The notes under the pieces are model-generated. The model searched no databases and was not told the DNA's origin. It saw nothing but the letters and a program-made list of their open reading frames with translations. Below, in pieces: positions 2,809 through 49,766 of a stretch of 64,000 nucleotides of DNA (positions are counted from its first letter, which is position 1; each line of letters starts with the position of its first letter). This DNA is from Halomonadaceae bacterium T82-2 (GTDB lineage Bacteria; Pseudomonadota; Gammaproteobacteria; Pseudomonadales; Halomonadaceae), in assembly GCA_001577635.1 (NCBI GenBank), contig LSBP01000002.1, forward strand, positions 186,001-250,000. The letters run 5' to 3'. The translations under genes and the position numbers were made by a program.

Positions 2809-3284
2809 GCGACTTTCCCGGCTTCATCGCCGTCGAGACCGGCGAGGAAGACGCCCTGCCGCTGGCCATCGCCTGGGCACTGCCCGACGGCCAGATCAAG
2901 CACACCCTGATTCAGCCCGACGACGACTGGCTCGGCGAGGAGCTGGCCGCGCTCGGCGACTACAGCCTGGACGAGCTGCGCACCTTCGGCGTCAGCCCGC
3001 TCGATGTGCTCAAGGAACTCGAGGGTGATCACTTCAGCACCACGCTCTACACCACGGGCATCAGCGACGACGAGGCGGCACTGTCACGGATTTTCGACAC
3101 CTTCGGCGTCGATCCCTTCGTGGAGCTGGCGCCGGTGGCGAGTCTCTACCCCGACCTGCAACCGGGCGAATGGGAGCGGGCGCGCAATGACCTGTTCGGT
3201 GAACTCGGCCTCGAGCCGCTGCGCGCCGACCATGAGGTGCAGGTCATGCTCTACCTGCATCAGCGTCTGATCGACAGCGTCTAG
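2805..3284 (+). CDS. Small conserved protein, possibly a degenerate exonuclease fold
   Basis: This 159-aa protein starts at the ATG that overlaps the tatD stop; an in-frame start further upstream would lie inside tatD and is rejected. The N-terminus (GFIAVETGEEDALPLAIAWALPDG, then LIQPDDDW) resembles the first strands of DnaQ/RNase H-like 3'-5' exonucleases, which usually read DxEtG. Here the first acidic residue is replaced (AVETG), so catalysis is doubtful. No signal peptide or membrane segment is visible. Coupling to tatD suggests a nucleic-acid role, but this is inference. The TAG stop at 3282-3284 overlaps the first bases of the palindromic repeat that follows. Confidence 0.75.
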   Translation: MSDFPGFIAVETGEEDALPLAIAWALPDGQIKHTLIQPDDDWLGEELAALGDYSLDELRTFGVSPLDVLKELEGDHFSTTLYTTGISDDEAALSRIFDTFGVDPFVELAPVASLYPDLQPGEWERARNDLFGELGLEPLRADHEVQVMLYLHQRLIDSV

Positions 3285-3428
3285 GGTTTGTCCGAAAAGT
3301 CGGCGAGCGAAGATCAGGCAAGGCGAAAATCAGCGAAAAAGCGGAGTTTACGGGGTGTAAATGAGCATTTTTGAGCTGATTTTCAACGCCGCATGACCGA
3401 GCGCAGCCAGTTTTCAGGCAAAGCCTAG
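3283..3428. repeat. Palindromic MITE-like repeat, copy 1
   Basis: An intergenic element of about 146 bp with imperfect terminal inverted repeats (left AGGGTTTGTCCGAAAA; the right end read in reverse complement is AGGCTTTGCCTGAAAA). An inner stem pairs AAAATCAGC with GCTGATTTT. The central core is GAGTTTA-N7-TAAATGA (3344-3364). It is closely related to the copy at 25937-26080. It contains no coding potential and no transposase. Its left end overlaps the stop codon of the preceding gene and its right end lies 15 bp from the stop of the convergent HPP gene. Confidence 0.85.
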
Positions 3429-21810: not shown

Positions 21811-22970
21811 CACAACTGCTTTCCCCCGACGCCTTCGAAAAGATCCGCCCCTATCACGACGACGAGGTGGCCGGCGTTCTCGACCGCCTGGCCCACAACC
21901 GGGAGTTCCTCGACGCCATCACCCGCTACCGGCTGCCGCGTCTGTCGCGCCATGCGCCCTGGCTCGCCCGCCGGCTGGCCGCCTTCGCCCTGCAGCGACA
22001 GATGCGCGGCGTGGCCAGCGTCGCCGACTTCCAGTCCCACATCGCCGCCTACATGCGGCGCATGCTGGCCACCACCACCGATGCCTTCACCGTCGAGGGC
22101 ATCGACAAGCTGGACCCCGAACGGGCTTACCTGTTCATCGGCAATCACCGCGACATCGCCCTCGACCCGGCCTTCGTCAACTACGCGCTCTACCAGGCCG
22201 GGCGCAACACGGTGCGCATCGCCATCGGCGACAACCTGCTGCAGAAGCCGTTCGTCACCGACCTGATGCGGCTCAACAAGAGCTTCATCGTGCCGCGCAG
22301 CGCCAAGGGCAAGCGCGCCATGCTGGCCGCCTACCAGACCCTGTCGAGCTATATCCGCCACTCGATCACCGTCGACAACCACCCGGTCTGGCTGGCCCAG
22401 CGCGAGGGCCGCGCCAAGGACGGCATCGACCGCGCCGACAGCGCCATCGTCAAGATGCTGACCATGGCCCGCCGCCAGGAAGACAAGCACGCCGACTTCG
22501 CCGAGGCGATCCGCGAGCTGCGCCTGGTGCCGGTGTCGATCAGTTACGAGTACGACCCCTGCGACCTGCAGAAGGCCCGCGAGCTCTACGCGGTACACAC
22601 CGAAGGCCGCTACGAGAAAGTGGAGTTCGAGGACATCCGTTCCATCGTCGCCGGCATCACCGGCTACAAGGGACGCATCAAGCTGACCTTCGGCACCCCG
22701 CTGGAAGGCGGCTTTGCCACCCCCGACGCGGTGGCCGGGGAGATCGACCGTCAGGTGCTGGCAGGCTATCACCTGTTTCCCAGCCACTACCTGGCGCTCG
22801 AAGCCAGCGGCCTGGCCCCGGACCTCGTGGATCTCAGCGAGGTCACCGCGGCCGACCGCCAGCGCTTCGAGGAACGGCTGGCGACGGTACCGGAGCCCCT
22901 GCGGGAATGGTGGCTGGCGCAGTACGCCAACCCCGTGCTCAATCGCGCCGGGCGAATCAACGAAGAATAG
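21807..22970 (+). CDS. PlsC-like 1-acylglycerol-3-phosphate acyltransferase family protein
   Basis: A 387-aa glycerophosphate acyltransferase-like protein. The catalytic H-x4-D motif is IGNHRDIALD (about 111-120), followed by a second block, KSFIVPRSAKGKRAMLAAYQTLSSYIRHSI, and a third, PVWLAQREGRAKDG, matching motifs I-III of the family. It is longer than classical PlsC and has no obvious transmembrane helix, so it may be a soluble or peripheral enzyme; acceptor and donor are unknown. The ATG overlaps the rdgC stop. The 7-bp tandem array begins directly at its stop codon. Confidence 0.85.
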   Translation: MTQLLSPDAFEKIRPYHDDEVAGVLDRLAHNREFLDAITRYRLPRLSRHAPWLARRLAAFALQRQMRGVASVADFQSHIAAYMRRMLATTTDAFTVEGIDKLDPERAYLFIGNHRDIALDPAFVNYALYQAGRNTVRIAIGDNLLQKPFVTDLMRLNKSFIVPRSAKGKRAMLAAYQTLSSYIRHSITVDNHPVWLAQREGRAKDGIDRADSAIVKMLTMARRQEDKHADFAEAIRELRLVPVSISYEYDPCDLQKARELYAVHTEGRYEKVEFEDIRSIVAGITGYKGRIKLTFGTPLEGGFATPDAVAGEIDRQVLAGYHLFPSHYLALEASGLAPDLVDLSEVTAADRQRFEERLATVPEPLREWWLAQYANPVLNRAGRINEE

Positions 22971-23119
22971 CTACGGGCTACGGGCTACGGGCTACGGGCT
23001 GCGGGCTACGGGCTACAGGCTACGGGCTACGGGCTACGGGCTACGGGCTACGGGCTACGGGCTGCGGGCTACGGGCTACAGGCTACGGGCTACGGACTAC
23101 GGGCTACGGGCTACGGGCT
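22971..23119. repeat. Heptanucleotide tandem array (CTACGGG), 21 units
   Basis: Twenty-one head-to-tail 7-bp units begin right after the acyltransferase stop. Most read CTACGGG; units 5 and 14 are CTGCGGG, units 7 and 16 are CTACAGG, and unit 18 is CTACGGA. The matching variants nine units apart show a 63-bp higher-order duplication. The array sits 38 bp before the convergent trkH stop. No hairpin terminator accompanies it. Confidence 0.97.
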
Positions 23120-23156
23120 GAATGTAGCTCGCAGCTCGGCGCCCGCGACTCGCCGC

Positions 23157-25877: not shown

Positions 25878-25936
25878 GCCTGCGGCCACTCACGCCGGCC
25901 TGACGCATCGCCTGGCTCGTGGTATCTTTCGCCTCG

Positions 25937-26080
25937 AGGGTTTGCACGAAAAGTCGGCGAGCGAAGGCAAGACAAGGCAAAAATCGGTGAAAAGGCGGAG
26001 TTTACGCGCTGTAAATGAGTACTTTGAGCCGATTTTTAACGCCGTATTGCCGAGCGCAGGCAGTTTTCGTTCAAAGCCTA
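25937..26080. repeat. Palindromic MITE-like repeat, copy 2
   Basis: Close relative of the element at 3283-3428: 144 bp with ends AGGGTTTGCACGAAAA and, in reverse complement from the right, AGGCTTTGAACGAAAA. The inner stem here pairs AAAAATCGG with CCGATTTTT, differing from copy 1 on both arms so that pairing is kept. The core is GAGTTTA-N7-TAAATGA (25998-26018). It lies between the cation exporter and the 93-aa gene, whose ribosome site begins 16 bp past its right end. Confidence 0.87.
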
Positions 26081-26110
26081 ATGCTATTCGTCGACGGGGA
26101 GAAAACCGAC

Positions 26111-30435: not shown

Positions 30436-30469
30436 GCAACGGTGCTACTGCGCTCGACGATACGGCGTT

Positions 30470-30529
30470 GACCTTCATCTCGGCACACTCATTTAGCGCT
30501 GCTAAACTCGCGCTGCCTCGATGAAGGTC
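30470..30529. repeat. 60-bp palindromic element between pilC and pilD
   Basis: GACCTTCATC at the left pairs perfectly with GATGAAGGTC at the right. The centre reads TCATTTA-N7-TAAACTC (30489-30509), which in reverse complement is the same GAGTTTA-N7-TAAATGA core found in the 145-bp elements at 3283 and 25937. It lies in the pilC-pilD gap, inside the probable operon, and has no coding potential. Confidence 0.85.
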
Positions 30530-30638
30530 GCCCTGTCTCGCCGTCGCTCGTGACGCACCTCGACTGCTGCCATGCCAGAAAAGCGCGGCTGTGGTACCGT
30601 CTGGCGCCGATACTCGCCGACCATTACAGGAGTCTCCC

Positions 30639-32175: not shown

Positions 32176-32417
32176 GCGACGACACCCGCAACCCGACCCG
32201 ACAACGCCCGCTGGAAGTCGCCTGCCCGCAGTGCCGAACCCTGGTGGTGTGGTCGGCCGACAACCCCTACCGGCCATTCTGCTCCAAGCGCTGCCGGCTG
32301 CTCGACCTCGGCGCCTGGGCCGACGAATCCCACCGCATCGCCGGCGAACCGGCCATGGACGAAGCCGACCTCGATGCGCTGATCGACCGCCTGGAGCGCG
32401 GCGGCGATAACCGCTGA
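32172..32417 (+). CDS. yacG: DNA gyrase inhibitor / zinc-ribbon protein YacG
   Basis: An 81-aa protein with a four-cysteine zinc ribbon: [12 protein letters not shown] and [25 protein letters not shown]. YacG of E. coli binds GyrB and blocks DNA binding by gyrase. The ATG overlaps the coaE stop. The gene is followed after 23 bp by the third palindromic repeat. Confidence 0.95.
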
Positions 32418-32440
32418 GCCTGTAGTCCTCGCTTCGATTC

Positions 32441-32584
32441 AGGAAGCGCTGAATAAATCGCCGAGCGGAGTGCAGCGCAAGGCGCACGGAGCACAGGAAC
32501 CGGAGCCTATGGGGTATAGGTGAGGATTCCGAGCACCGCGCAACGAAGCGATGCACCCGCGCAGGCATTTAGTCAGTGTTTCCT
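32441..32584. repeat. Palindromic MITE-like repeat, diverged family member
   Basis: A 144-bp element of the same length as the 25937 copy but with different ends (AGGAAGCGCTGAATAAAT at the left; AGGAAACACTGACTAAAT from the right in reverse complement). The core is GAGCCTA-N7-TAGGTGA (32503-32523), so the inner arms changed from TTTA/TAAA to CCTA/TAGG while pairing was kept. Blocks CCGAGCG, GCAAGGCG and GCGCAG align with copies 1 and 2. Its right end overlaps the prpD stop codon. Confidence 0.82.
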
Positions 32585-34068
32585 CAGATCACGAACAGAT
32601 CCATGAACTCATGCACCGGCGTGGCCTCCAGCTGCGCCTGGTCCTTGCACAGGCCGAAGATCCGCTCGCAGCGCCCGGCCGGGAAGCGCGTGGCCAGGTT
32701 GGCCTGGAACTTGGCCTCGAGCAGCGGGATGCCCTCCGCGCGGCGGCGGCGATGGCCCACCGGATACTCCACTTCCACCTTGTCGGTCTTGCTGCCGTCG
32801 CTGAAGAACACCTGTACCGCGTTGGCGATGGAGCGCTTGTCGGCCTCCAGGTACTCGCGGGTATAGCGCGGGTCCTCCTCGATCACCATCTTGCCGCGCA
32901 GCTCGTCGATGATCGGGTGCGCCTCGTGGAAGGCGTCCTCGTAGTGCTCGGCGGTCAGCGACCCGAACGCCAGCGGCACCGCGGTCATGTACTGCAGGCA
33001 GTGGTCGCGGTCGGCGGGGTTCGCAAGGTGCCCTTCCTTGGAGATGATGCGAATCGCCGACTCGTGGGTGGTGATGACAATCTTGTCGATCTCGTCGAGC
33101 CGGTCCCTGACCTCGGGATGCAGCCGCACCGCCGCCTCGCAGGCGGTCTGGGAGTGGAACTCGGCGGGGAAGGAGATCTTGAACAGGATGTTCTCCATCA
33201 CGTAGGTGCCGTAGTCCTGGGGCAGGTTGAAGCGGCGCTGGTCCTCCGGCTTGAGCGCCTGGTCCTTGTTGGTCTTGGAGAACAGCACGTCGTAGAAGCC
33301 CCACTGCGGCGCGGACAGCACCCCGGGAATGCCCATCTCGCCGCGCAGGGCGATGTCGGCCAGGCGCACCGCCCGCGAGGTGGCGTCCCCCGCCGCCCAG
33401 GACTTGCGCGAGCCGGCGTTGGGCGCGTGACGGTAGGTGCGCAGGCTCTGGCCGTCGACGAAGGCATGCGACAGCGCCGAGAGCAGCTGTTCACGATCGG
33501 CGCCCATCAGCTTGGCGACCACCGCGGTGGAGGCCACCTTGACCAGCACCACGTGGTCCAGCCCCACGCGGTTGAAGGAGTTCTCCAGCGCCAGCACGCC
33601 CTGGATCTCGTGGGCCATGATCATCGCCTCGAGCACCTCGCGCATGGTCAGCGGCGCCTTGCCCCGGGCGACACGCTGCTGCGAGAGATGATCGGCGACG
33701 GCGAGGATGCCGCCCAGATTGTCGGAGGGGTGGCCCCACTCGGCGGCCAGCCAGGTGTCATTGTAGTCCAGCCAGCGGATGATCGCGCCGATGTCCCAGG
33801 CGGCCTTGGCCGGGTCGAGACGAAACGAGGTACCCGGCACGCGGGCGCCGTGCGGCACCACCGTGCCCTCGACGAGCGGGCCCAGGTGCTTGGTGCACTC
33901 GGGAAAGCGCAGGGCCAGCAGGCCGCAGCCCAGGGTATCCATCAGGCAGTTGCGGGCGGTATCCAGAGCCTCGGTGCTGTCGATCCGGTAGCCGAGCACG
34001 TAATCGGCGATCTGCTGGAGTTCGGCGTCGTAGTCCGGACGCTGGTTCTGTTCAACGTTGGCGCTCAT
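32584..34068 (-). CDS. prpD: 2-methylcitrate dehydratase PrpD
   Basis: A MmgE/PrpD-fold enzyme of 494 aa that dehydrates 2-methylcitrate to 2-methylaconitate/2-methylisocitrate precursors in propionate degradation. Recognisable stretches are [72 protein letters not shown] and [42 protein letters not shown] (first residues approximate). I use the ATG at 34068, which has AAGGAA upstream. No acnD or prpF is present, which fits the PrpD (not AcnD) version of the cycle. It is the last gene of the leftward prp cluster. Confidence 0.95.
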
Positions 34069-49674: not shown

Positions 49675-49762
49675 GGCGCCTCGCAGGCATCATTAACCGT
49701 GAGTACGGTGGTTTGGCGGGCCGGAAACACCGTGCCGCCGGGAGGCATGCCATCTCCCGGGC
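49675..49762 (-). ncRNA. Fluoride riboswitch (crcB motif)
   Basis: Read leftward, the leader has GGGAG-ATGGCATGC-CTCCC, whose loop GGCAT can pair with the downstream ATGCC in TTAATGATGCCTGC. This is the hallmark pseudoknot of the fluoride aptamer; the same GGAGATGGCAT...TGATGCC pattern occurs in the well-studied Pseudomonas syringae example. Two further stems (GGCGG/CCGCC and ACCGT/ACGGT) fill the middle. The expression platform may involve GCCTGC pairing with GCAGCAGGC further down. It lies 87 bases before the longer possible crcB start. Confidence 0.85.
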
Positions 49763-49766
49763 GATA

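Follow-up and report, generated by a model that had tools for sequence, protein, structure and literature searches.

MITE families are mostly defined per genome and by their ends, and we know of no transposase that mobilises ERIC. The ERIC repeats (IRU, RU-1) of enterobacteria and vibrios, described in 1990-91, share with the element analyzed here a long imperfect hairpin and have reported terminal inverted repeats and target site duplications, but differ from it in a 4-nt apical loop, in their arms and in the TA at their ends, as far as the accessible part of that account goes (PMC2229807). MITEPsy1 of Pseudomonas syringae pv. phaseolicola, a 100-nt element observed to transpose, is likewise small, is labeled 'IS5?' and carries terminal repeats and a CTAG or YTAA duplication; the likeness is one of size, ends and target, and its authors considered that similar sequences might be widespread (PMC3189936). 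REP and REPIN sequences are also dispersed extragenic palindromes, but are reported as units of 20-40 bp (PMC3733652) and with tyrosine transposases (PMC2817692), in contrast to the DDE IS5-type ends and target duplications reported below. Bacterial MITE families are treated one by one in the portions covered (PMC10969869; PMC2229807), and some of the stem-loop families known from P. putida and from P. aeruginosa might be members of the superfamily described here (PMC2267715). Two other candidates, judged from excerpts, were rejected: the motif of BoxC, an E. coli triplex repeat, differs (PMC4666352), and the Bradyrhizobium repeats have other consensus sequences (PMC5082802). In the portions of the open-access literature covered, no paper was found that unites bacterial MITE families by interior structure, and a literature search by sequence words returned unrelated papers only, among the matches listed.

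A hairpin element between yacG and prpD

The window, that is, the whole stretch of 64,000 nucleotides analyzed here, belongs to a draft genome of 3.42 Mb in 55 contigs. The first-pass annotation had described a 144-bp stretch with terminal inverted repeats of its own, which keeps the skeleton of two other elements, with TTTA/TAAA. The stretch is present, and by the ends of its repeat family it measures 142 bp, from GG at 32442 to CC at 32583. We refer to its family as F2 and to that of the TTTA/TAAA elements, whose ends differ, as F1. Both terminal repeats were recovered, and the locus contains the following features.

32442..32583, + strand: F2 element, MITE, 142 bp (BLAST copies with the same ends in its own genome and in relatives; hairpin z -7.3)
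32442..32458, + strand: left terminal inverted repeat GGAAGCGCTGAATAAAT (sequence and family ends)
32567..32583, - strand: right terminal inverted repeat, reverse complement GGAAACACTGACTAAAT (sequence and family ends)
32439..32441, no strand: TCA, possible 3-bp target duplication, left (sequence; a 3-bp match is weak alone)
32584..32586, no strand: TCA, possible target duplication, right, identical with the prpD stop codon (TGA on the - strand; sequence)
32477..32484, + strand: skeleton motif GCAAGGCG, left side of the outer internal loop (model alignment)
32541..32545, + strand: skeleton motif CAACG, right side of the outer internal loop (model alignment)
32503..32523, + strand: core GAG-CCTAT-N5-ATAGG-TGA (5-bp apical stem, with G.U and tandem G.A mismatches at its base)

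CCGAGCG, GCAAGGCG and CAACG, the words of the skeleton, all occur in the element, and covariance models rich in F1 align with it from GCAAGGCG through CAACG. The core reads GAG-CCTAT-GGGGT-ATAGG-TGA in the window. A central GAG...TGA had been listed as part of the skeleton; this holds for most F2 copies, but not for five of the 43 fetched, which have another apical loop (judged by eye).

Positions 32442-32583 fold end to end into one imperfect hairpin of -74.8 kcal/mol (z -7.3), with none of 200 shuffles as low, and the opposite strand folds with a z of -6.2. No Rfam family matched the element at gathering score, the best sub-threshold E being 0.64. The element lies between two convergent genes, yacG (+, stop ending at 32417) and prpD (-, stop codon 32584-32586), putative names read from the ORF translations. 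It is present unchanged in the relative G340 and absent from L350 and L351, which come from more distant relatives that keep yacG beside prpD; in both, prpD ends at the same place, and the intergenic sequence is too diverged for the target to be read. The compared stretches of ten other relatives in the genus contained neither yacG nor the element.

The window contains four copies of a shared skeleton

The pattern GAGNNTA-N7-TANNTGA, with at most one mismatch allowed, has four matches in the window, all exact, against 0.30 expected, and none of 100 shuffles reached four. The whole genome contains 24 matches, compared to none for the reversed control pattern. Of the 269 cores found in this study, 134 were non-redundant and 91 of these showed good arm pairing; alignment A1 comprises 45 sequences from the latter, each with at most one mismatch in the core stem. 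Covariance model R1 is based on 45 sequences, including three of the window's four copies. Model R2 is based on 42, since the two F2 copies in A1 and a Klebsiella copy were left out, and may include other enterobacteria. In the window, R1 matched four places (3314+, 25968+, 32473+ and 30457-), which adds three copies to the F2 element.

3285..3424, + strand: F1 element of 140 bp; target duplication CTAG, left copy 3281-3284, right copy 3425-3428 (79.4 bits; element in the training set)
25934..26081, + strand: second F1 element, approximate ends (model match 25968-26050, 71.3 bits)
30457..30540, - strand: fourth, diverged copy between genes read from the sequence as putative pilC and pilD (49.8 bits with R1 and 50.6 bits with R2; locus in both training sets)

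F1 copies were also seen at the ends of contigs C36, C51, C53 and C4 of the same genome, where the draft assembly probably breaks at them.

The hold-out model R2 found the F2 element of the window with 47.2 bits (E 2.3e-11). Since this model was trained without F2 copies, F1 and F2 share a skeleton. When R1 was run on 141,860 bp of other loci, six matches were obtained: the element itself in L348 and L349 (60.1 bits), an F2 copy with a variant loop in L356 (19.2 bits), the inner part of a truncated F1-like copy in L091 (16.2 bits), and two matches at 11.5 and 10.5 bits that we presume to be chance. The earlier proposal of a superfamily with conserved structure and diversifying sequence families is supported by the hold-out result and by covariation above shuffles. 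It had been proposed that the idea would fall if the second family proved unrelated once aligned; instead, R2 recovered F2 from non-F2 copies.

Pairing is kept within F2 and across bacteria

The covariation check proposed with the first description was carried out by shuffles, which ignore kinship between copies and make no correction for relatedness, and found pairing kept both within F2 and across bacteria. Within F2, whose copies were found by BLAST independently of the core pattern, 81 double-changed Watson-Crick cells were counted (shuffled mean 19.6, max 30), and 18 of the 51 pairs of the hairpin have at least two Watson-Crick types differing on both sides. In the 38 F2 copies without the variant loop, the NN:NN positions of the core occur in four complementary types (28, 8, 1 and 1 copies); on a tree from which the core was left out, and which is noisy, they need at least eight changes. 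Across bacteria, the NN:NN pairs, which the pattern does not impose, are complementary in 141 of 144 cases among the matches listed, with five types (shuffled mean 56, max 74), an unselected figure that includes near-identical copies. Among the matches listed, 114 genome cores have a paired NN and flanks of sufficient length; 20 or more pairs enclose the core in 100 of them, versus 32 of 114 with shuffled flanks.

In the 45 copies of A1, 95.4% of cells pair (76.8% shuffled), 111 cells are double-changed (34 shuffled) and the covariation score is 0.568 (0.196 shuffled), values that none of 500 shuffles reached; the number of pairs changed on both sides, seven, was equalled by 164 of the 500. 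Sliding the columns by 1-3 reduced pairing to 22-47%. The 100% pairing of helix 2 in A1 is partly built in, because rows were selected on arm and core pairing. Covariation of this kind reflects kept pairing rather than function, since template-switch 'palindrome correction' can also produce it.

The 45 rows define a common fine structure. The apical stem, NNTAY-N5-RTANN, is closed by G.U, followed by tandem G.A mismatches and a 2-bp helix. One pair of this helix varies in a compensatory way (GC 36, CG 5, AU 2, GU 2), while C-G is the other pair in all 45; outward of this helix lie three covarying pairs. Both sides of the outer loop CAAGGC/AACGC match exactly in 17 of 45 rows; rows with a different loop include the CGTAC rows from alphaproteobacteria and viruses. 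The constancy of GAG/TGA is not independent evidence because these letters are part of the search pattern, as are GC and CA beside them in genome rows. Across all 43 F2 copies, GAG/TGA is no more conserved than the rest (p 0.95), and without the five variant copies its conservation is 0.98-1.0 versus 0.91 elsewhere; it is these five copies with another loop that abolish the difference in the whole set.

F2 is a MITE family of the IS5 type

F2 has four copies above noise in its own genome, the other three being 87-88% identical to the window copy, and occurs in 26 of 61 genomes and 10 of 24 genera of the bacterial family. As expected of MITEs, F2 elements have terminal inverted repeats, are shorter than 500 bp, are multicopy and lack a transposase gene. 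We fetched 43 loci from more than 100 listed matches, with both ends visible in 38. The 4-bp flanks are identical in 10 of these 38 copies (shuffled mean 2.08, max 8), at least three of the four flank bases are identical in 23 (shuffled mean 9.3, max 19), and YTAR was read in 29 of 76 flanks. A YTAR-like target site duplication is seen at the level of the family; the window copy has no 4-bp duplication, only the possible 3-bp TCA on each side. Two kinds of variant were noticed among the copies. In L081, L083, L085, L208, L209 and at L356:561-643, arms and ends are the same and another apical loop, CGAGACATAAC...GTTAGGCGAG, replaces GGAG...TGAG. The copies in L206, L207 and L210 measure 158-175 bp and have short extra GC-rich stretches in their arms.

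An insertion sequence of 1227 bp in the relative G005 (L093:995-2221) is flanked by CTAG on both sides, and its ends differ from the F2 motif at no more than 2 of 13 bases. Its transposase of 332 aa matches NCBIfam IS5 with E 1.3e-86 and contains DUF772 and DDE_Tnp_1. The flank duplications, together with this IS5-family relative with closely matching ends and CTAG flanks, identify F2 as a MITE of IS5 type. F1-like ends were found on a second IS5-family group (DUF4096 plus DDE), at both ends in L104 and at one end in L102, L103 and L119; one of three scanned proteins of this group scored above the curated NCBIfam cut-off, the others being fragments below it. The own draft genome yielded no insertion sequence with F2 ends, and its sole DDE_Tnp_1 match, L090, has neither the F1 nor the F2 terminal motif. 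Neither the F2 element nor a copy from a viral contig had a match in phage records, and four plasmid records matched weakly.

Comparison with G340 bears on F1. Where the window has GCGT-CTAG-element-CTAG-TGAGC, G340, without the F1 element of 3285-3424, has GCGT-CTCG-TGACC; as judged from the two sequences, the difference is one F1 insertion with a 4-bp duplication, one target difference being allowed. G340 also lacks the F1 copy near 25934, with 9 bp between the flanks versus 153, and this junction is too diverged for the target to be read. That these elements are MITEs, with target duplications of IS5 type, goes beyond the first-pass annotation.

The hairpin interior is widespread and occurs with different ends

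The core pattern was found in 98 of 274 gammaproteobacterial genomes, where single matches are near background and the reversed control also matched in many. In high-copy genomes core and reversed control differ widely (39 v 0 in G081, 22 v 1 in G229, 23 v 0 in G235). At E 0.01 per genome, R1 matched 116 of 299 genomes sampled in the phylum, covering 47 of 154 genera. A pattern scan of named genomes gave at least 118 stretches with the core, and 18 viral stretches had it. Among the matches listed, the core occurs in Proteobacteria of several classes, including Pseudomonas, Stutzerimonas, Halomonas, Salinicola, Chromohalobacter, Chromobacterium, Nitrosomonadales, Mesorhizobium and Bosea; Desulfobacterales, Nitrospirales and Bacteroidota (Alistipes/Rikenellaceae) are represented by single records. 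The metagenome-assembled records on which several phyla are based, and a single Listeria record, may be contamination. At L131:371-511, two copies stand in direct tandem beside a tRNA gene, with cores 119 bp apart. In viral contigs from IMG/VR (L332, L335, L338, L342-L346), copies lie beside what seems by eye to be the same gene 3' end.

The same interior was found with three types of ends: those of F1 (GGTTTGTCCGAAAA, target YTAR), those of F2 (GGAAGCGCTGAATAAAT, target YTAR) and a third type, GAACCTGTTCACGATC, with target TNA. The GAACCTGTTCACGATC ends occur in two other genomes (L171-L174, L177 and L179), and of seven copies tried, all six with two ends have identical 3-bp TNA flanks. That one interior has three end types suggests an old hairpin module whose terminal repeats have been replaced by others. 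Here it is the interior that is common, across three end types, two kinds of target duplication and several phyla.

We consider the following reading about 80% probable as a whole: the element is a MITE moved by IS5-type transposition, its interior derives from a hairpin superfamily with kept pairing, the ends have been exchanged, ERIC is a distant member, and the hairpin has a role as folded DNA. F2 would be non-autonomous and moved in trans by an IS5-family transposase that recognizes the terminal repeats, as the sequences of ends and partner imply, and its insertion would duplicate a short YTAR-like target. The interior belongs to a superfamily whose arms swap letters while pairing is kept around a constant core, GGAG/TGAG with tandem G.A, with the outer loop GCAAGGC/CAACGC in most, not all, copies. 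By swapping its terminal repeats, the module would have come to lie in transposons with unrelated ends. In what is the weakest step, the hairpin may have been kept because it acts as folded DNA, either in the lagging strand or in the course of transposition.

A CGTAC-core repeat of E. coli (one copy, L347) has the same core and scores 43.4 bits with R1 and 37.2 bits with R2, but its left arm is shorter and its ends differ; it may be the 'RSA' repeat. The Klebsiella copy of this repeat matches 5,375 of 5,426 E. coli genomes, at a median of five places per genome. Two E. coli ERIC copies (L362, L363), retrieved with a query made of two ERIC primers, read GGAG-CTTAC-N4-GTAAG-TGA, with AAGGCG to the left of this core and AACGCAGC to its right, both in register. 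Their scores are marginal: R2 gives 19.2 bits (E 0.004) and 15.6 bits (E 0.044), and R1 gives 17.8 bits (E 0.007) and 14.3 bits (E 0.078), against 11.5 bits for the best presumed chance match of R1. This sequence likeness is suggestive of ERIC as a distant superfamily member, and a kinship with ERIC, which the first-pass annotation did not consider, may exist.

A broader proposal, to which we give somewhat less than even odds, is that one ancient tandem-G.A hairpin module crossed phyla by changing transposon ends, that ERIC and unnamed repeats are its branches, and that a conserved host or transposition factor recognizes the folded strand. If our main reading is true, ERIC gains relatives of known transposase type, and the GGAG/TGAG tandem mismatch becomes a structural motif open to mutation in a transposition assay. 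The covariance model could also annotate many unexplained intergenic hairpins, as its matches in the 116 genomes indicate.

Placement at gene ends and the role of the hairpin

In 15 of 25 F2 copies, the 4-bp flank lies on the stop codon that ends an open frame of 300 nt or more. The same is true of 33 of 100 YTAR sites in the flanking DNA (p 0.005), and random positions in the flanks give a mean of 0.76 of 25. A YTAR target carries TAA or TAG, and its duplication on insertion gives the gene back its stop, which makes gene ends a safe place to land. Some of the abutting frames could be genes cut by insertion, or no genes; prpD alone was checked. This placement would also suit a hairpin that acts as RNA, transcribed with the genes it abuts and altering mRNA stability or termination, as is reported for ERIC in Yersinia; orientation-dependent effects of ERIC on mRNA decay are described (PMC2229807). 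Action as RNA would be expected to leave an excess of G.T over A.C mismatches and probably an orientation bias. On the GAG...TGA strand, G.T does exceed A.C in F2 (31 v 13, p 0.010) and in the TTTAC group (20 v 6, p 0.009). However, the CGTAC copies show 10 v 18, the excess is absent from all copies together (90 v 93; 208 usable of 269), and the non-redundant set gives 50 v 34 (91 usable of 134; p 0.10). Relative to the abutting gene there is no clear orientation bias (7 same and 11 opposite, for 18 gene ends in 17 copies), and the Rfam search likewise offers this reading nothing. An F2 count of 3 v 34 obtained from fixed arm columns was set aside as presumably the product of a mispaired column, 31 of the 34 A.C mismatches being in one orientation. 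We regard a role as RNA as possible but doubtful, and the balance weakly favors a role of the hairpin at the DNA level.

In replication, template switching can copy one palindrome arm onto the other. Neutral upkeep of this kind would renew pairing without any function; it would account for covariation without strand bias in palindromic DNA, and many of the arm changes are indeed exact double changes. Such copying should, however, erase imperfections, yet 43 of 45 rows keep an extra G before GAG, 40 keep the A that follows the 2-bp helix, and 30 have a similar outer loop. This argument is weakened in that GAG/TGA, and often GC/CA, belong to the search patterns. We judge neutral upkeep unlikely.

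That F1 and F2 are unrelated MITEs, alike by chance or convergence, is very improbable: their ends and their IS5-family partners differ and a search of the own genome with F2 gave no F1 copy, but the hold-out match at E 2.3e-11 stands against a best presumed chance match of 11.5 bits (R1, 141,860 bp). We give next to no credence to an ordinary bidirectional transcription terminator for the yacG/prpD pair, which would suit the convergent position at the 3' ends and the other short hairpin-like stretch seen by eye at yacG/prpD in L351, since the same element is dispersed over tandem, convergent and divergent sites (18, 7 and 7 of 33 F2 loci, with 1 unresolved, by rough ORF calls) and two relatives keep yacG beside prpD without it. 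Elsewhere in the window, we observed a fluoride riboswitch (Rfam RF01734) at 49677-49766 on the - strand, with 36 bits, and a tandem 7-base repeat of GCTACGG type at about 22960-23140.
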